A DNA stretch of 64,000 bases, from IMG/VR virus record IMGVR_UViG_3300049460_000312, positions 1 through 64,000 of that record; one strand, written 5' to 3'. The notes beneath the pieces are model-generated. The model saw only the letters and a program-made list of their open reading frames with translations. It had not been told where the DNA came from and searched no databases. A program made the translations under genes and the position numbers. Position 1 is the first letter of the stretch. Each line of letters starts with the position of its first letter. The DNA is from a virus. This document shows, piece by piece, positions 1,551 to 28,851 of this stretch.

Positions 1551-2245
1551 ATTCCACCTGTGGGCTGTTGCGGAGGCTCAGTGCGGGCGGACGCCGACGG
1601 ACACACGGGGAAACTGCCGGCGGCACGGTCGGTCACATGATACCCGACGAGTGGCTGGCCGTTCAGGATCAACCCACTGCGCAGGAGTGTCTTCCGCGGA
1701 AAGGCACTATGAAACGCCTGGATGGTGCTGGAAAGTCGCTCCTCCAGTACTGTTTTCATCGCTGCATTGAAGTAGCCTTCACGCAGAGCTTCTTCCACAT
1801 TGCCTAGCGCCTGGCAAAGCTCGATCGCGCGCTGCCGCATGCCAGGCATCCCACCGTTCATATTCGTGAAGTGGAAATCGGCGGTGTTGGAATGCTTCTG
1901 CCCGTAAGTCGCTTTCGGGTACTGATTGCGCCAGTAGCCCGCGGTGCTTTCTTCATAGGCCACAAAGCCATGAAAGCGGGGCTCGGCATCGACGCCGTCA
2001 TGCTCGCCGTTAACCAGATAGTGTCCTTTAATCTCGACCTGATGAAAGACCACTTCTTTGAGCTGCAGATCGGCGCCGGGCTCCAAACCATAGAAGGCGC
2101 TGTGCGAGCGCAACATCCGTTCGGGTGTGGAGTCGCTCGTGTAGCAGAAAGTCACGAGATAGAGTTGCAGGCCGATATGAAAGCGAGCATTCACTTTCTT
2201 CGAGTCGTCGCCTTCGAATTGAGGCAGGGCGGGTTCGTGTGGCAT
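1547..2245 (-). CDS. hypothetical protein (232 aa)
   Basis: ATG at 2245 preceded by a purine-rich stretch (GGAAAGGAAAAG). No membrane segment or signal peptide. The protein has many aromatic residues and mixed charge, and the last 25 residues (from SASARTEPPQQPTGGI backwards) look disordered. It is upstream of and coupled by ATGA to the DHFR gene, which suggests co-expression and perhaps a nucleotide-related job, but no catalytic motif is visible. Family not recognised. Confidence 0.8.
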   Translation of the reverse strand: MPHEPALPQFEGDDSKKVNARFHIGLQLYLVTFCYTSDSTPERMLRSHSAFYGLEPGADLQLKEVVFHQVEIKGHYLVNGEHDGVDAEPRFHGFVAYEESTAGYWRNQYPKATYGQKHSNTADFHFTNMNGGMPGMRQRAIELCQALGNVEEALREGYFNAAMKTVLEERLSSTIQAFHSAFPRKTLLRSGLILNGQPLVGYHVTDRAAGSFPVCPSASARTEPPQQPTGGI

Positions 2246-2281
2246 GGTCGTACTTTTCCTTTCCTTTAAATGGCGAATTGG

Positions 2282-2995
2282 TTAGATATCGCCGGTGGTG
2301 GTTTTACGAACGAATTCCTTGACTGCTTCCAGGTTAAGAAAGGCCACATGGGCCGAGATATTGCGTGCACACACGCCATCGGGTACGGAGCAACGTGCCA
2401 CCCGGGCGGTGTTCTTGTCGAAGATACGGCTGGGGGTAAGCGTTTTGGACCGTAACGCCACGCGCATGGTTTCCCGGTCGGCCTCGTGTTCGGTGCTTTC
2501 GGTGCGCAGCCAGCGACCAAATTGCAGATTCGCTTTGGAAACCAGCTTTTCTTCCGGCGTACTCAGCGGCGCAGCAACATATCGCTCCACCTTGTTAAAA
2601 GGAGAATAAACCCGGAACACGCCGTGCTCTTCTTCCATGGCTTCGCCACGCCGGGTCGCGACGCGGACCTTACCCTGGCTCGCCAGCCAGTTTTCCACCA
2701 GACCACGGGACTGCATGGGCATGACAAAGAACTGGTACTGCGGATGTATGTTCAGCAAGCGCCGCAAGACCAACGCCAGGGCCTTGTAACGCTGGTAGGG
2801 TTTCTCGCGTACCACCAGTTCGTAGAACTCGATGTCGCCACTGGTCGAGGTGTAGTACTGGTTCGTCGCCGGATGGTAAATCAAGATCCCTTCCCAGGCT
2901 TTCGGAATCTCCCGTTCCGGTACACCGTTCACTATCTCCCGCAAGTAGTGACTGATTTGGGACGGGCGAGTGAGTTTCTCATATTCGACAATCAT
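2282..2995 (-). CDS. hypothetical protein (237 aa)
   Basis: ATG at 2995, without a convincing Shine-Dalgarno sequence, 29 bases beyond the hairpin at 3024-3042. Soluble, basic in the second half, with three scattered cysteines near the end (residues ~200-212). It lies 36 bases upstream of the 232-aa gene and is probably in the same transcript as DHFR. No motif is recognised. Confidence 0.75.
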   Translation of the reverse strand: MIVEYEKLTRPSQISHYLREIVNGVPEREIPKAWEGILIYHPATNQYYTSTSGDIEFYELVVREKPYQRYKALALVLRRLLNIHPQYQFFVMPMQSRGLVENWLASQGKVRVATRRGEAMEEEHGVFRVYSPFNKVERYVAAPLSTPEEKLVSKANLQFGRWLRTESTEHEADRETMRVALRSKTLTPSRIFDKNTARVARCSVPDGVCARNISAHVAFLNLEAVKEFVRKTTTGDI

Positions 2996-3023
2996 GGCGG
3001 TTACTACTATCGTGCGGCATAGC

Positions 3024-3042
3024 CGGAGGGATTACCCCTCCG
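3024..3042 (-). terminator. hairpin terminator after the 435-aa gene
   Basis: Perfect 7-bp stem CGGAGGG/CCCTCCG. The minus-strand sequence after it reads GCTATGCCGC, again carrying TATG. Confidence 0.7.
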
Positions 3043-3057
3043 ACCATTTACCGGGTT

Positions 3058-4365
3058 TTAGAACCGGAAGACTTCGTTGTCACTCAGCAGACGTTTCGTT
3101 GACGCCGTGATGACTTTGGAGATCTCCAGACCGAGCGAGTCGTACAGGCCCACCAGCAGCCGGGCAACTCGCATGCGCTGGTTCAGTTCCTTGGCGAGCA
3201 GGTTCTGGAAAGTATGAAGCGCGGTGAAGAACGCTTCAAACGAACCATGGCCGCGCGACAAAGCGATGAACGCATTACGCAGATACTTCGACGGCTGGAT
3301 CAGCCGGGTGTTGATGGTGGTGAGATGCAGGTCCAGTCCTTCGGCTTCGAGCGCTTGCTCGACGACCTTCAGGGTCTTCGACGGCAGGGAAGCCGCTAGC
3401 GCCCGAATCAGCCAGAGCGACAGGTAGTAGTGTTCCGGCCGGATAGTGCGGGCCACGTGCGCGTACTCCACCCGGGTCGGATACTCTCCTTTACGATGCG
3501 GCACCTCCACCAGTCGAGCCAGTGCCATCGCATCAAACTCGCGCACAACCTTATCGTACGCTTGGTTATGCGTTTGCGACTGCTCGCGCGTCACCGTGTA
3601 GTACAGCGCCAGCTCACGCAGCAGATTCTTCGCTTCGTTGGTCAGCCCCACGATGTCGTCAGTGATAATCATGCTGCGGTAGGTGCCGAACTCCGTACCC
3701 ATAATCAGGTTCACGAAGTTAAAGAGCAACTCCTCGCGCGTAACCTGATCGAGGCCGCGTACCGCTGCATCCACACGTCGGAACTCACTTTCCAGCTTGT
3801 CGACATCGAGTGCCCCGTGATAACCCCGAAACTTCTCGAACAACTCCGCCTCACCCACGAAGTTGTAGTGTCCCTCGCGGACCAGGTCGCGATACGGCTT
3901 GTTGGCATCCAGCGGTTTGCCCGGATGGAACAGGCGCGAGAGCTTGGACGGATGCGCTTCCTGTTTGCCGGAGAGGTCGACGTTCTCCGCATCCTGATAC
4001 CGTCCGAGGGCTTGCTTGACGCTATCAGTGACGTTCGGAGCGAAGTCGTCAGCGTCGAGGAGATCTTCCAGCTCCGCATCTTCACCCCGCATCTCAGCCG
4101 CGATCATTTTGGAAAACGCCCCGGCTAGCTTCTGGATGTCATCTTCGCTGGGCGTGTCATCATCTTCCTCGCGGGACGAAACCAGCGTCACTGCTTTGGG
4201 CTGCATCGCGGAGGGATGTTCCTCCTGCCCGCCGTTAGGTTCATCGCCCGCTTTGGGTGGTTGCTTTGCCATGGTTTCCTCCAAGAACGCGGCCACTTCT
4301 TTCGACGTCATTAAAGGCCGTCGATCAGTTTTGACGCGCTTCGATTTCGGTGGTTTCTTAGCCAC
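3058..4365 (-). CDS. hypothetical helical protein (435 aa)
   Basis: I place the start at the GTG at 4365 because AGGGAG lies six bases before it; an ATG at 4398 would add 11 residues but has no ribosome site. The first 20 residues are very basic (VAKKPPKSKRVKTDRRP), followed by an acidic disordered stretch to about residue 150 (EEDDDTPSEDD, AEDAELEDLLDADD) and then a helical domain. This bipartite charge pattern is common in virion and assembly proteins, but no family is recognised. The 373-aa gene is 55 bases upstream and probably in the same unit. Confidence 0.8.
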   Translation of the reverse strand: MAKKPPKSKRVKTDRRPLMTSKEVAAFLEETMAKQPPKAGDEPNGGQEEHPSAMQPKAVTLVSSREEDDDTPSEDDIQKLAGAFSKMIAAEMRGEDAELEDLLDADDFAPNVTDSVKQALGRYQDAENVDLSGKQEAHPSKLSRLFHPGKPLDANKPYRDLVREGHYNFVGEAELFEKFRGYHGALDVDKLESEFRRVDAAVRGLDQVTREELLFNFVNLIMGTEFGTYRSMIITDDIVGLTNEAKNLLRELALYYTVTREQSQTHNQAYDKVVREFDAMALARLVEVPHRKGEYPTRVEYAHVARTIRPEHYYLSLWLIRALAASLPSKTLKVVEQALEAEGLDLHLTTINTRLIQPSKYLRNAFIALSRGHGSFEAFFTALHTFQNLLAKELNQRMRVARLLVGLYDSLGLEISKVITASTKRLLSDNEVFRF

Positions 4366-17578: not shown

Positions 17579-18043
17579 TTAATGACGGGTAAAGATGCCG
17601 GTAACGCGAACTGTTTCCGGCTGGGGTTCGGTTTGCCGCCAGCGATAGCGTTGACCGCCCTCGATGATGATGCCCTGGTCGTACTGGTCTTCTGCCTGCA
17701 TGATTTCAAGATCCGTCAGGGGCCGCATTGCCTGCCACTGATTTTCGCCAACTCGCGCGAAGAGCCAGTGAAAGTGCAATCCCTCACCGAAACCTACCGC
17801 CATGTCCGGGTTGTCCTGCACCCGAATCAGCTTCATCTTGGGATCAAGACCACGTACTTCCTGACGACCCCACTGACCTCGCTCCTGTGCGTCCAGGCGC
17901 ATCGAACAGGTAGCGAAGTCACACAGCGGGCCGTCGACATGCACACAACTGCCGCCAGCTTTGTCCTTGTAGACGCCACAGAGCTTGACCGGATCGGGTG
18001 GAAATGCAACAAGCTGCTTAAGCCAACCCACTAGCCGCTTCAT
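17579..18043 (-). CDS. hypothetical Cys-containing protein (154 aa)
   Basis: ATG at 18043, overlapping the stop of the 355-aa gene by four bases, with GGGG upstream. Four cysteines in the first 50 residues (LCGVYKDKAGGSCVHV, LCDFATCSM) could form a small metal-binding knot; the rest is mixed alpha/beta. Coupled to the 355-aa gene, so possibly its partner. Family not recognised. Confidence 0.77.
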   Translation of the reverse strand: MKRLVGWLKQLVAFPPDPVKLCGVYKDKAGGSCVHVDGPLCDFATCSMRLDAQERGQWGRQEVRGLDPKMKLIRVQDNPDMAVGFGEGLHFHWLFARVGENQWQAMRPLTDLEIMQAEDQYDQGIIIEGGQRYRWRQTEPQPETVRVTGIFTRH

Positions 18044-19107
18044 TGGAACTTCCCCGCTTCTTTTTGCTGCAACTGATGCGGAGTGAGCGGCTCCTGGGTA
18101 TTGATCCCCGGAATCGGCACAGGCCGGGCGGCAATGCTCTTGGCGAGGTCGCTGTGAATCGGATTGCCCTTGAGGTCGTGATCGACGGGCGCCATGACAT
18201 CAGGGACGCTCGTATTTTGTTGCTGCGCTGCGCGCTGCACGATCGACAGCAAGCTTTCGTGACCATGACAGATCTCGTTAGCAAACTGCTTGAACGCCTG
18301 GTACAGGCTATGACTGTCCGGCTGGCCGAGGTTCGTCATCAAGCGCTTGATGATTTCGTCCTGCTCTGTATTGCTGACCCGGTTGATCACCGATGGCTCA
18401 TGGAACTTCGAGGCAGCCATGCCGAGGCGTGCTACCCACGCCTGCGAGCCTTCCTCAGATTGACCGTTCAGGAACAGGCGGGCCTTGAGAGCGTCGGTAT
18501 CCAGCTTACTGAGCTTGGTGCGCGCGTCCTCCGACAGATCAGTCAGATAGGCCCCGTACGTCAGCTGGAAGTCGTGATCGATGTTATCGACCAGGGTGCG
18601 CAGATGTTCCAGTGCCGCAGCACGCTCCGCCACCGGGGCTTCAGCCACTGGCACGAGGTACTTGACCCAGTCTGCTTCGAAAGTGACGTCTTCGCCATGC
18701 GCACGCAGCTTGACATCGCAATCACCGCCCCACTTGGCACGATGGATCAGTTCGTTCAGCTTGTCCTGCACACCATCAGTCACGGCCCGCTTCGGCAGGA
18801 ACCAGCCGCCGTCTTCCGGCACCTGACCCTGTGGCAGCACCACCAGGGTCCCGTCGGGCATCGTCACCAGCAGGTCGCCGAAACCAAAGCGCAACGTCCG
18901 GCCGCCCTGGGTGATGAGGTACAGCTCGTAGTGCTCGTGCGTGACCGGACAGCCGTTGTAGGTGAACGACCAGGGTACACCGTCGACGACGCTTGCGCCC
19001 GACTGATTACGACCGATCATCAGGAAACGATCCCAATTCACGAATCCGGAGCGATGGCTGGGAGCAACCGTGACCTCAAAGTCCGGCAGATCGATAGCAT
19101 TAGACAT
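18040..19107 (-). CDS. hypothetical protein (355 aa)
   Basis: I use the ATG at 19107 (MSNAIDLPDFEV), with AGGAGA upstream. The first ~115 residues look beta-rich (WDRFLMIGRNQSGASVVDGV, GDLLVTMPDGTLVVLPQG); the rest is helical, with a Pro-rich tail (PVPIPGINTQEPLTPHQLQQ). No catalytic motif found. It overlaps the 77-aa gene by eight bases and sits just downstream of the small P-loop ATPase, suggesting one functional group. Confidence 0.78.
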   Translation of the reverse strand: MSNAIDLPDFEVTVAPSHRSGFVNWDRFLMIGRNQSGASVVDGVPWSFTYNGCPVTHEHYELYLITQGGRTLRFGFGDLLVTMPDGTLVVLPQGQVPEDGGWFLPKRAVTDGVQDKLNELIHRAKWGGDCDVKLRAHGEDVTFEADWVKYLVPVAEAPVAERAAALEHLRTLVDNIDHDFQLTYGAYLTDLSEDARTKLSKLDTDALKARLFLNGQSEEGSQAWVARLGMAASKFHEPSVINRVSNTEQDEIIKRLMTNLGQPDSHSLYQAFKQFANEICHGHESLLSIVQRAAQQQNTSVPDVMAPVDHDLKGNPIHSDLAKSIAARPVPIPGINTQEPLTPHQLQQKEAGKFQ

Positions 19108-19333
19108 TCTGCTCTCCTGCAAGCGGCTGCGAGTCCTCGCCGGCAGCCTGCGCTTCGTTGATGATAGCCAGGAAGCGCTCGCGCACTACCGGACGAGCAT
19201 CACGGAAACGATCGACGAGATGGCGCAGCATGGTCGCGTCTTCTTCAGTCCGATTGACTTCGCTCAGCCGAGCCTGCAACACGCTGTCGAAGGCTTCTTC
19301 ACGGAGAAGGGATGTCGCAACTTTGGTATTCAT
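19100..19333 (-). CDS. small helical protein (77 aa)
   Basis: ATG at 19333 with GGGGAAAG upstream. Almost fully charged helix (EEDATMLRHLVDRFRDARPV). It lies between the ATPase gene and the 355-aa gene with overlap to the latter, so probably an adaptor in this operon. Unknown family. Confidence 0.75.
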   Translation of the reverse strand: MNTKVATSLLREEAFDSVLQARLSEVNRTEEDATMLRHLVDRFRDARPVVRERFLAIINEAQAAGEDSQPLAGEQNV

Positions 19334-19343
19334 AGCTTTCCCC

Positions 19344-19814
19344 TTAGAGGATGTTGACGACGGAGAATTCTGGGTGGAACCATTCCGGGTGTTGTTCGTA
19401 CACGCGCTCGATCAGGTAGTACGGGCTGCTCGACGTGTAAGCGTTCCGCCCTTCGTTGTCGATCACCAACGTCACGACATCCTTAAGCTTGCTCTGCACG
19501 AGCTGGTGCGGTTCGAGACGACGGGTTTCGACGCGCTCGTCAAGCTTCAGATGCGCCACACCGTGGCCACCGACACCTGTGTTGATCATCAGACGTGCAT
19601 TATCGCGCTGGCGCACCGTTTGCTGGGCCAGAGTCGACTTGCCGGTTTGACGCGGACCGCCGATCGTCAGAACACGGAATTCACGCAACTGCATCAGCGG
19701 ATTGGTGATCAGCTGTTCTTCGATCTGCTTCACGCGAGTCTTGGCTTCGCGCAGGAACACCCAGACGAGATCGTCCCAGGGCATTTCCTTCGGGGGACGG
19801 GAATTCGAATACAT
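19344..19814 (-). CDS. small P-loop ATPase (156 aa)
   Basis: Walker A GPRQTGKST at residues 53-61 after a hydrophobic strand (FRVLTIGG), and a Walker-B-like strand VVTLVIDN near residues 112-119. At 156 aa it is shorter than most AAA or nucleoside kinase domains and lacks an obvious sensor region. The motif GPRQTGKS is typical of the ATPases paired with restriction or transposition systems and of DUF4143-type AAA proteins. It heads an operon of four unknown genes ending at 17,271. Role unknown; the nucleotide-binding call is firm. Confidence 0.83.
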   Translation of the reverse strand: MYSNSRPPKEMPWDDLVWVFLREAKTRVKQIEEQLITNPLMQLREFRVLTIGGPRQTGKSTLAQQTVRQRDNARLMINTGVGGHGVAHLKLDERVETRRLEPHQLVQSKLKDVVTLVIDNEGRNAYTSSSPYYLIERVYEQHPEWFHPEFSVVNIL

Positions 19815-19839: not shown

Positions 19840-19859
19840 GGAGGAACTGCAGTTCCTCC
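19840..19859. repeat. 20-bp perfect palindrome
   Basis: GGAGGAACTGCAGTTCCTCC is fully self-complementary. It lies between the NAMPT-like gene and the small ATPase gene, without T-run or TATG, so it may be a weak terminator, an RNA-processing site or a protein-binding site. Confidence 0.6.
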
Positions 19860-19867
19860 CTGTGTTG

Positions 19868-21685
19868 TTAAGCCGCCTGCTTCAGGCGTTCGCAGACTTC
19901 GGCGTACGTGGTCGGGCGCGGAAATGCGCCATTCACGTACATCGCGCGCAGCTCACCCGAGGACGTGATAATGTCCTGGATCGCCATTTGCTGTTCTTCC
20001 AGCTTGACGAAGTCGCCGCGCTCGTTCTTCACGACCTTCAGGAAACCCTTGGCGGACTTCTTGTTAGTGACGCCTTCGGTCTTCGGTGCCTTGAAGAGTT
20101 CGATCACTTCGTCTTCCACCCGCACGGCGGTGGCCTTCACGGCAAAGCCGAAGGTGTCGCGCGTGTTGTGCTGGTACGTGTAGGAGCCGATACCGAACAC
20201 CGTGTTGCAGGAGGCGAAACCCTTGACGTAGAGACGTCGGAGGATTTCATCCGCACGCTCGACCGTGATCGAGTCACCGTAAATCAGACCGACCCGTTCG
20301 TGCAGGACCTTGTAGCCGAGCGACGTCTTGGTGCCGCCGAAGATATCCCACAGCACTTGCACCGCACCTTGTTCTTGCGGCGTGAGCGGCCACTCGGGCA
20401 GCGGGACGATGCAGTAGCCATTGTAGTTCGCCGTGTACCACTTGCCTTGCAGACGCTCGTCGTCTTTGAGAATGGCGCGAACGATTTCGCCACCACCGAA
20501 GTTGACGAGGAAGTCCTTCGGCGCATCGCGCATTTCGTCGGTACTCGACGTGATGCGCAGGAAGTCGTCCTTGCTGTGGACGTAACGACCCGCGAGCACT
20601 TCAACAGGGTCGCCCGAGTCCGGACGGAACACCACCTTGGCCAAGCCCATCTCGTCCGGCTGGCGGGCGAGGATTTCGTTCTTCAGGCTGGCTGCGATCT
20701 CGGTGATCACCTTCCAGAAGTCGAAAGAGTCCGACACCAGCGAGACCACACCGGTCGGATGCTTCTTGGTCAGTACGTCGAAGATGAACTTACGCTCGCC
20801 TTGGGCGCGCAGCTCGTCCATATCGAGGCCGATCTTGTCGTTCGGATAGTGCGCGTGGATCTGCTTGAGCAGCTTGCTGACGTTGAACAGAATGTTCGAC
20901 GTCGCCACGGCGTGTTCGGTAGCGACCACCGAGCAGGCGACGAATTCCTTTTCGACGTTGGCCCCGTACATGTCTTCGACGTAGTCGATGGCCGGCAGCG
21001 TATCGGTGCCCTTGAAGACGATCTGATGACTCGAACCCACCCGTGCCGCATCTTCCGGACCGGAGAGTCCACGGAAGGAGAAGTCATGGCCCTGGATGTC
21101 GACAAACGAGCGATCCACGCCGGTTTTATCGGCCCAGTATTCGAACGTACGGCGATACTCGTAGGCGATGGTCGCGTTGGTGGTCATCTTCCACAGCAGC
21201 GCCGACATCATCGTTTCGAGGTAGTTCACCAGCCAGTAGAACGCCGGATGCGTGTTGTACGTGACGTAGGTCGGCACGTTGATATTCACCCGCTCACCTT
21301 CGGGAAGCCCCAGCACCACGAGCGGCAGGTAGCCGAGGTCGTGCAGTTCCTCGAAGCACTTCACATCCACCCGGTTATCGCCGAGGTAGTATTTCATACG
21401 GCGCGCATAGCGCTTACAGACGGCTTCCTTGGGCTTGCTGAAGAACGAGTTGTGCCAGAGGCCGTTGATCTCGCGCATCACGCCCTGCAGGCCGTAGTTG
21501 ACGATCTTGCCGTCCCAGAAGCGCGACTTTGACTTGTTGTCGACGAACAGACGGTCCGAGCGGTACGTGCCGTTGCTGTAGGTGAAGTTCGTGCCGTCCG
21601 GGTAGAGCGGGCGATGGCCGACTTTGTAGCCGTCGGTAGTGGTGGGGGCGAACAGATGAAACGAAGTATCGTGAGTTTGGTGCAT
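19868..21685 (-). CDS. nicotinamide phosphoribosyltransferase family enzyme (NAMPT/NadV, or Namat of NARP1)
   Basis: 605 aa. Family landmarks: TDGYKVGH (18-24), GLQGVM (65-70), R205 in SFRGLSG, D228 in FKGTDT, the catalytic His H258 in VVATEHAV, R354 and D356 in FRPDSGDP, and the NadV-type end GLIYGDSIT...KGFASCNTVFGIG (466-500) with NTRDTFGF. NAMPT joins nicotinamide to PRPP to give NMN; the phage NARP1 homologue Namat joins it to ADP-ribose pyrophosphate to give NAD+. Human NAMPT is about 491 aa; here some 70 extra residues lie between RPDSGDP and the GDSIT motif, close to the active site. It stands next to a PRPP-synthetase-like gene. The enzyme class is firm; NMN versus NAD+ as product is undecided. 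Confidence 0.92.
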   Translation of the reverse strand: MHQTHDTSFHLFAPTTTDGYKVGHRPLYPDGTNFTYSNGTYRSDRLFVDNKSKSRFWDGKIVNYGLQGVMREINGLWHNSFFSKPKEAVCKRYARRMKYYLGDNRVDVKCFEELHDLGYLPLVVLGLPEGERVNINVPTYVTYNTHPAFYWLVNYLETMMSALLWKMTTNATIAYEYRRTFEYWADKTGVDRSFVDIQGHDFSFRGLSGPEDAARVGSSHQIVFKGTDTLPAIDYVEDMYGANVEKEFVACSVVATEHAVATSNILFNVSKLLKQIHAHYPNDKIGLDMDELRAQGERKFIFDVLTKKHPTGVVSLVSDSFDFWKVITEIAASLKNEILARQPDEMGLAKVVFRPDSGDPVEVLAGRYVHSKDDFLRITSSTDEMRDAPKDFLVNFGGGEIVRAILKDDERLQGKWYTANYNGYCIVPLPEWPLTPQEQGAVQVLWDIFGGTKTSLGYKVLHERVGLIYGDSITVERADEILRRLYVKGFASCNTVFGIGSYTYQHNTRDTFGFAVKATAVRVEDEVIELFKAPKTEGVTNKKSAKGFLKVVKNERGDFVKLEEQQMAIQDIITSSGELRAMYVNGAFPRPTTYAEVCERLKQAA

Positions 21686-21714
21686 GATGGTGTTTGTGTT
21701 CTTGCTGTTATAGG

Positions 21715-22614
21715 TTAAAGCGGAAACCAGTGGACGCGCCGGAGTTGTTCGTGGTTACGAAACTTCTCGCTATGCAGACGCAATTCACTCGTGCAATCCG
21801 GATGGAACGAATCGGTGGTGTAGATACGATCGAATACGTCGAGTACCGGCTCAAGACCGTAGGAGAAAATCCCGTGCGAGACGAACAGGCTCAGTTCCTT
21901 GCAACCTTCATCACGTAGGATCTTGCCAAGCTGAATGAATGTACGACCACCGTCGCAGATGTCGTCGACGACGATCAGGTTCTTGCCCGTGACATCCCCG
22001 TCCAGACGCGCAGCCGAGACTTCCATCGTCTTCGGGTCCCGTGCCTTGGTGGCTGTGACGTATGGAATGTCGAGTGCTTCCGACAGCGCCTTGATCTTCT
22101 TGACTGCACCAGCGTCCGGTGCGACCAGCATCAGATCACGCGTGTCGAGGCTCAGGATCTGATGTTCGACTACCTGACCGAGCATCTGCTTTTGCGTCGT
22201 GACGAACGATTTGTTGATCACGGCGGCAGCCACGTCGCTATGCGGATCGAACAGCGACACCGATTCCAGCTGCATGGCGTTGAGCATTTGCGCGAACATG
22301 CTCAGCGACAAAGCTTCGCCGACATTGCAAACGCGGTCCTGACGGGCGTACGGCAGATACGGAATGAACACGTGGATCTTCGCGACCGGTGCGATACGGC
22401 GCAGCGCGTCGATGGTCAGGAAAAACGCCATCACCAGATCCGAATTCGTCAGGTGTCCCGTGATCTCAACGCGCTCGCCACGAAACGTCAACGAGAACAG
22501 ATTCTTCACCACGGCTTCCGGCAGACGGACATTCACTTCACCGCCCTTGAAGGTACTGACTTCCACCGGCAGGTTCTGCATGAACACGCCGTTACCAACA
22601 CTAACCTTAATCAT
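21715..22614 (-). CDS. ribose-phosphate pyrophosphokinase family enzyme (Prs-like, or Adps of NARP1)
   Basis: 299 aa, slightly short for Prs (310-320). Conserved: the ATP site VFIPYLPYARQDR (82-94), FDPHSDVAAAV (122-132), the flexible loop KARDPKTMEVS (190-200) and the pentose-phosphate loop at 217-225. That loop reads DDICDGGRT where cellular enzymes have DDMIDTGGT, so the residues that cap the 5'-phosphate of ribose-5-phosphate are changed. Prs makes PRPP; the phage relative Adps pyrophosphorylates ADP-ribose instead. Its neighbour, 29 bases downstream, is the NAMPT-like gene that would use either product. An early-like motif at 22,642-22,650 sits 28 bases before its ATG. Confidence 0.92.
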   Translation of the reverse strand: MIKVSVGNGVFMQNLPVEVSTFKGGEVNVRLPEAVVKNLFSLTFRGERVEITGHLTNSDLVMAFFLTIDALRRIAPVAKIHVFIPYLPYARQDRVCNVGEALSLSMFAQMLNAMQLESVSLFDPHSDVAAAVINKSFVTTQKQMLGQVVEHQILSLDTRDLMLVAPDAGAVKKIKALSEALDIPYVTATKARDPKTMEVSAARLDGDVTGKNLIVVDDICDGGRTFIQLGKILRDEGCKELSLFVSHGIFSYGLEPVLDVFDRIYTTDSFHPDCTSELRLHSEKFRNHEQLRRVHWFPL

Positions 22615-28338: not shown

Positions 28339-28851
28339 TTAGGTAGTAACTTTGTCGGAGGCTCCTACTTCCGGCGTAATCGACTTCAGGGTATTGGTCA
28401 GTGCCATCCGCATAGCTTGAATCCGCGAGTCGTTCAGTGGATCGCGCGGACCTGCTTCGATAATGCGCAGGGCGCTTCTCGGTAACTCCCAGGTGTAGTG
28501 CATCGCATCGCTCACTGCGTTTCGCAGTGTATTGTCGTAGCGGTCCCACTCCGCCCGAAAGTAATGGATCACCGTGCCGCAATAAAGTTTATCTTGCAGC
28601 GGTGCGTTGTCTGCGGTAACCGTTTCAGTCACTAGCGGTAACTTTTCGATGTTGCGCAAACGCATTCCTACCTTTTCGAGACTTTCTTGCTGTAGCGTCT
28701 GTATCATGGTGGCGCCACGCTCTACCACTCCACCTGGGAAGCAGTAGTGCGCAATGCGGCCATGTTCATTCCATACCCGTCCCAGACAGATCCGGCCATT
28801 CTTAACGATCACTACGCGTGCTGTGGCTCGCAGAGGAAGTTCTTTGGACAT
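28339..28851 (-). CDS. divergent Nudix-family protein (170 aa)
   Basis: ATG at 28851 with AAGGA upstream. The segment FPGGVVERGATMIQTLQQES-LEKVGM (38-63) has the spacing of a Nudix box (GX5EX7REUXEEXGU), but the first Glu is Ala, the Arg is Gln and one Glu of the EE pair is Lys; two acidic residues (E56, E59) remain. Nudix enzymes cleave nucleoside diphosphates such as ADP-ribose, NADH, caps or alarmones. Activity may be weak or altered. Preceded by an early-promoter-like motif, and near the NAD genes. Fold likely, substrate unknown. Confidence 0.8.
   Translation of the reverse strand: MSKELPLRATARVVIVKNGRICLGRVWNEHGRIAHYCFPGGVVERGATMIQTLQQESLEKVGMRLRNIEKLPLVTETVTADNAPLQDKLYCGTVIHYFRAEWDRYDNTLRNAVSDAMHYTWELPRSALRIIEAGPRDPLNDSRIQAMRMALTNTLKSITPEVGASDKVTT

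Follow-up and report, generated by a model that had tools for sequence, protein, structure and literature searches.

Does a pair of adjacent viral genes resembling NAMPT and PRPP synthetase (Prs) carry out ordinary nicotinamide salvage, or does it form a NARP1 system, in which a relative of Prs, the ADP-ribose pyrophosphate synthetase Adps, and a relative of NAMPT, the nicotinamide ADP-ribose transferase Namat, reconstitute NAD+? The question is raised by a locus within the first 64,000 nucleotides of IMG/VR virus record IMGVR_UViG_3300049460_000312, a stretch referred to here as the window and forming part of a record of 283,373 bp.

The gene pair and its setting

An earlier note on this DNA, made from the sequence, had reported two open reading frames at this site, and both are present, on the minus strand and in the same direction. 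The adps-like gene (21715..22614, minus strand) encodes a protein of 299 residues, a predicted ADP-ribose pyrophosphate synthetase of the Prs fold whose loop for ribose-5-phosphate (R5P) or ADP-ribose (ADPR) reads DDICDGGRTF. Downstream of it, after a spacing of 29 nt, the namat-like gene (19868..21685, minus strand) encodes a predicted nicotinamide ADP-ribose transferase of 605 residues. Family scores are far beyond chance for both proteins, at 1.3e-44 to TIGR01251 (ribP_PPkin) for the former, and at 2.6e-129 to NCBIfam PRK09198 and 1.5e-29 to the NAPRTase Pfam model for the latter. A thymidylate synthase is encoded close by, and phiKZ-type inner-head proteins are encoded farther away. Megablast of the region returned no near-identical known phage and no DNA-level match to any annotated phage; at the protein level, the nearest annotated phages are Phabio and Viktualia.

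Eight nucleotides past the namat stop codon lies a perfect 20-nt palindrome, GGAGGAACTGCAGTTCCTCC (19840..19859, minus strand), which is possibly a transcript end or a processing site. No run of T follows this palindrome, and a hairpin of differing sequence occupies the equivalent place after namat, likewise near the stop, in the closest relative, locus L029. A search for sigma-70-like promoters found none. Reading frames at window positions 18040-19122 and 19344-19814 match separate halves of PHROG 31185, which in L029 is one P-loop protein of 376 residues (L029:7812-8942) adjoined by an RNA ligase-like gene that is missing from the window; the split and the missing gene together indicate that the region 3' of namat has been rearranged. 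The single PADLOC candidate was rejected as a weak match to PsyrT through a shared PRTase motif. A Nudix hydrolase encoded at 28339-28851 shows weak similarity to MutT; action on ADPR would compete with NARP1, and, its resemblance to MutT being only weak, the protein was set aside as a candidate ADPR hydrolase neighbor.

Clamp, loop and phylogenetic placement

The Namat of Bacillus phage SPbetaL1 has been solved with NAM and NAD+, and an adenine selectivity clamp separates Namat from Nampt; this clamp is defined by a stacking Arg, Lys or Tyr in a loop together with a helix motif, GSXnXnXnTRD, in which positions 3 and 7 are aromatic (PMC12774641). In an alignment of 23 NAMPT-family proteins, with the SPbetaL1 reference taken from its genome record OQ921341, the stacking residue of the clamp loop is R45 in the window protein, aligned to SPbetaL1 R40, and residues 500-510, GSYTYQHNTRD, conform to the helix motif in the form GSX(T/S)X(Q/N)X(N/V)TRD, placing clamp residues at Y502 and H506. 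Motif position 7 (residue 506) is thus His in the window protein, as it is in the Namat of Mycobacterium phage DyoEdafos (GSFTYQHNTRD), and Tyr in SPbetaL1. At this site the Nampt references from ValKK3, Roth27, ACP17, Arthrobacter and Cupriavidus all read GGxLLQ..RD, and such a Nampt/NadV-type PRPP entrance, with no adenine clamp, is not found in the window protein. The 21 SPbetaL1 residues that contact NAM or NAD+ or supply the catalytic His (H258 in the window protein) are identical in the window protein except for A362S, F392Y and Y396H, the replacements being conservative, and the equivalents of the Nampt-type core residues D13, Y15, F189, R192, D215, H245, R306 and D308 are all conserved. 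An AlphaFold2 model built from 75 alignment rows (pLDDT 91) finds its best fit in Namat entries 9w5x/9w5w (Z 45.1, 1.6-1.8 A, 43-44% identity), with Z scores of 43.2 to Haemophilus ducreyi NadV (HdNadV) and 40.1 to human Nampt; sequence bit scores are 378 to SPbetaL1 Namat, 291 to HdNadV and 129 to mouse/human Nampt.

Relative to SPbetaL1 Namat, the window protein carries two inserts, one of about 62 residues straight after RPDSGDP (residues 354-360), falling roughly at residues 367-439 (approximate DNA 20369..20587, minus strand), and one of about 29 residues after the catalytic-His segment, roughly at residues 262-298. The first, close in length to the "about 70" extra residues near the active site counted in the earlier note, is variable and was modelled with low confidence (pLDDT 40-67). 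The alignment shows no insert at this position in the Namats of SPbetaL1, DyoEdafos, ICP1 or GH15, and shows 27-77 extra residues in the same place in those of Phabio, Viktualia, PA1C, Psa21, Bas63, PAK_P1, pf16, phiR1-37 and KNP2. Judged from these sequences, the insert varies within the clade and often occurs in the Namats of Gram-negative phages. The extra residues listed in the earlier note are no sign of NARP1, and an insert of about 60 residues was rejected as a functional hallmark: many Gram-negative phage Namats carry one, yet the biochemically shown Namats of SPbetaL1 and DyoEdafos do not, and it is therefore not diagnostic of NARP1.

In Prs, the loop DDMIDTGGT holds the 5'-phosphate of ribose-5-phosphate. 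The window protein has DDICDGGRT where E. coli Prs has this sequence, as the earlier note had correctly read, and alignment identifies the change as the norm of the Adps family: DDICDGG(R/A/G/W/M)(T/S) is the Adps-like loop of most NARP1-bearing phages, including DyoEdafos (DDICDGGGT) and Bas63 (ending GGRT), whereas SPbetaL1 Adps deviates with DDLSSFGGT. The changed loop may fit ADPR. Adps-like proteins retain the Prs catalytic residues, FxxGE, RxDR (R/Q/DR), H, KxR (K/R), PD and DD, represented in the window protein by F22..E26, R91-R94, H125, D167, K190/R192 and D217/D218. The model of the window protein matches Prs structures; Adps itself has no published structure according to PMC12774641.

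E. coli Prs alone is too thin an outgroup for an Adps tree, and it was replaced by housekeeping Prs paralogs of nine bacteria in whose genomes an Adps-like gene is present as well. The resulting tree contains an Adps-like clade of 32 rows (support 100/98) and sets the 11 housekeeping Prs apart (100/99). Because SPbetaL1 and DyoEdafos both fall within the clade that holds the window protein, the latter is enclosed between two Adps whose biochemistry has been shown. The Namat tree groups the window protein with the Namats of SPbetaL1 and DyoEdafos, with five Nampts split off at 100/100. Clustering with ordinary Prs and NadV, the outcome that the earlier note had named as contradicting NARP1, is thus not what the trees return, as both proteins fall apart from Prs and Nampt.

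One member of the Namat clade counsels care. HdNadV (PDB 9ke8/9keo), represented in the tree by a partial sequence assembled from HMMER alignments, nests beside SPbetaL1 inside the clade, and expression of this enzyme in E. coli yields NMN (PMC6095924). Membership in the Namat clade by itself is therefore no proof that ADPR pyrophosphate (ADPR-PP) is the substrate, and HdNadV stands as a caution against assigning a substrate from clade only. At the positions of SPbetaL1 R40, F392 and Y396, the HMMER alignments give Glu, Gln and Arg for HdNadV, and Arg, Tyr and His for the window protein. By its sequence, HdNadV apparently descends from Namats whose recognition of ADPR-PP was lost, unless the change ran in the opposite direction. 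With a clade member that lacks the clamp, the assignment of substrate rests on the clamp residues, and these the window protein has kept.

Proposed reaction and competing explanations

Under the NARP1 reading, a host defense NADase of Sir2, TIR or SEFIR type would split NAD+ into ADPR and nicotinamide, the Adps-like enzyme would convert ADPR and ATP to ADPR-PP, and the Namat-like enzyme would join ADPR-PP to nicotinamide, so that NAD+ would be restored in two steps with no NMN adenylyltransferase involved. The DyoEdafos enzymes have rebuilt NAD+ in vitro (PMC13232231), and NARP1 from several phages overcomes NAD+-depleting defenses (PMC12774641, PMC13232231). Every sequence-level feature of NARP1, for Adps and for Namat, that we tested is present in the pair. 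The trees, the Adps-type loop and the adenine clamp, the last of which the earlier note did not mention, all support its interpretation of the pair as a possible NARP1 system. We consider it very probable, from sequence, that the pair is a NARP1 system with the substrates and reaction of NARP1 chemistry, and reasonably probable that counter-defense is the role for which it has been selected. Counting against the NARP1 reading are the NMN-forming activity of Namat and the place of HdNadV, both taken up below, the His at residue 506, and the related phage PaP1, for which NAD+ in infected cells reportedly still falls despite the presence of Adps and Namat genes (PMC12846349).

Ordinary nicotinamide salvage would have the Prs-like enzyme convert R5P to PRPP, the NAMPT-like enzyme form NMN, and host enzymes of NadD/NadR type complete the synthesis of NAD+. 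It draws on the finding that Namat can also make NMN from PRPP in vitro (PMC12774641) and on the NMN made in E. coli by HdNadV, of the same clade, but all three clamp residues are gone from HdNadV, where the window protein retains Arg, Tyr and His, and the Prs-like protein has an Adps-type loop and groups with the SPbetaL1 and DyoEdafos Adps, not with the housekeeping Prs, which makes this explanation improbable. Salvage of the NARP2 type, in which NadV/Nampt is paired with an NMN adenylyltransferase (NMNAT), is less credible still. A search for NMNAT (CTP_transf_like, PF01467) found no match in the 283,373-bp record and was positive in 14 of 14 control genomes; it is this lack of a detectable NMNAT that disfavors NARP2, although incompleteness of the record could hide such a gene. 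The window protein does belong to the NAMPT family, and NARP2-like phages do exist, as in ACP17, where an NMNAT-Nudix gene adjoins Nampt; its clamp, however, is of the Namat type rather than the Nampt type, and the tree separates it from the Nampts of ACP17 and ValKK3 at 100/100.

A different objection grants the pair its NARP1 chemistry and disputes the purpose, assigning it to general NAD+/ADPR housekeeping during a long jumbo-phage infection, a role also suggested for NARP1 on bacterial chromosomes, instead of counter-defense. Bacterial genomes commonly contain Adps-Namat pairs of the same signature (77 of the 80 best-matching loci), and for active bacterial NARP1 a host-centered role has been argued (PMC12774641). 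We nevertheless regard a housekeeping role as rather unlikely, given that phage NARP1 defeats NAD+-depleting defenses (PMC12774641, PMC13232231) and that a patchy occurrence across chimallin-encoding phages, described below, suits a defense-dependent trait better than a core trait.

NARP1 in chimallin-encoding and other genomes

A search with PA1C protein QBX32206, named ChmA in PMC10643120, identified a ChmA homolog in a frame of 708 codons at record positions 101355-103127 (E 2.7e-13 and 3.3e-9; 26-28% identity). This homolog, diverged as it is, marks the window phage as a chimallin-encoding jumbo phage. Nine or ten jumbo-phage sequences, the window included, form one Namat clade in each of two trees, with support of 99/97 to 100/99. 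Profile searches found Namat and Adps in Phabio and PA1C, and NARP1 is also present in chimallin-encoding Psa21; neither protein was found at profile sensitivity in the ChmA-encoding phages phiKZ, PhiPA3, 201phi2-1 and FBPa36 (genomes PP813861, for FBPa36, and NC_004629, NC_028999 and NC_010821). FBPa36 is equated here with Pa36, since the FBPa36 protein XCN26243 shares an accession series with the published JADA protein XCN26233. Both phiKZ and Pa36 are reported to be sensitive to Avs5, and the Avs5 study described a drop and then a rebound of NAD+ in Pa36-infected cells, wondering about recycling enzymes of the phage (PMC12931631). Since Pa36 shows neither Namat nor Adps, NARP1 is an unlikely source of its rebound under Avs5. 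Tentatively, and with considerable doubt, NARP1 in chimallin-encoding phages might be viewed as a lineage-specific shield against Sir2-type NADase defenses such as Avs5; if that is true, the Pa36 rebound in the presence of Avs5 needs another source. The patchiness of NARP1 among phages that face the Sir2 NADase defense Avs5 yields a testable prediction.

NARP1 has been described already, NARP1-bearing Pseudomonas phages such as the Pakpunavirus Adele among its recognized carriers (PMC12846349), and the window pair adds a clear further example, carried by a chimallin-encoding jumbo phage that is uncultivated and whose relatives continue to be annotated with simple NadV/Prs salvage. The NARP1-like pairs of the chimallin-encoding jumbo phages Phabio, Viktualia, PA1C and Psa21, labelled ribose-phosphate pyrophosphokinase and nicotinamide phosphoribosyltransferase, share with the window pair the Namat clade, motifs, insert position and nearby thymidylate synthase, at roughly 37-58% identity. 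Beside their pairs, PA1C, Viktualia and L029 encode RtcB and/or RNA ligase, the ligase lying downstream, in an NAD+/RNA repair neighborhood (loci L003, L004 and L029); the 283,373-bp record has no detectable RtcB. SPbetaL1 NARP1 has the same order, adps then namat, and the same fold and clamp architecture, but identity is only about 47% for Namat and 29% for Adps. In DyoEdafos, RyDEP lies between the two genes; with the DyoEdafos RyDEP as query, none was found in the window, and a Pfam RyR search gave no match there or in its positive control. The Nampts of human and Xcc and those of phages (KVP40-type ValKK3 and NARP2-type ACP17) share the fold, NAM-binding and catalytic core with the window protein but differ at the clamp motif and by clade, and the ValKK3, Roth27 and ACP17 loci have no Adps partner. 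Taken together, the Namat clamp and the Adps loop make a practical two-gene sequence test.

Among 80 viral and 80 bacterial loci that were the best matches to a Namat profile, and hence do not constitute an unbiased survey, an Adps gene lies within the fetched flanks of Namat in 69 and 77, respectively. Bacterial carriers include Burkholderiaceae, Achromobacter, Acinetobacter, Citrobacter, Klebsiella and Bacteroidota; as predicted pairs, these loci agree with, and broaden, the bacterial NARP1 of PMC12774641.

Several relatives depart from the usual arrangement. In Shigella phage Ag3, gp130 (L010:2953-4596, 547 residues) is a chimera in which the N-terminal part of Adps, through DDICDGGRTF, continues in frame into the C-terminal two thirds of a Namat that lacks the D13/Y15/R40 region; the product looks like an in-frame deletion that joined two NARP1 genes, and PHROG 12872, of 547 positions, appears to be the family of this protein. 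Aeromonas phage AS-zj (L013:2983-4509) and Shewanella phage 1/40 (L027:3628-5211) each encode a Namat-like protein whose clamp is non-standard, GSWGFLKNASRD and GSYANLQNNTRD, respectively, and whose locus also contains an Adps-like gene; these two Namat-like proteins may differ in substrate. Leptolyngbya phage Lbo-JY46 (L026:1-663 and 2213-3238) has a Namat-motif protein labelled PncB and a gene labelled PrsA with the loop DDICDGGAT, and this cyanophage pair is probably a mis-annotated NARP1. Finally, a RyDEP-like reading frame (L033:2123-2548; E 2.8e-11 to DyoEdafos gp78) lies about 3.4 kb from an Adps gene of an uncultivated viral contig, outside the annotated mycobacteriophages.
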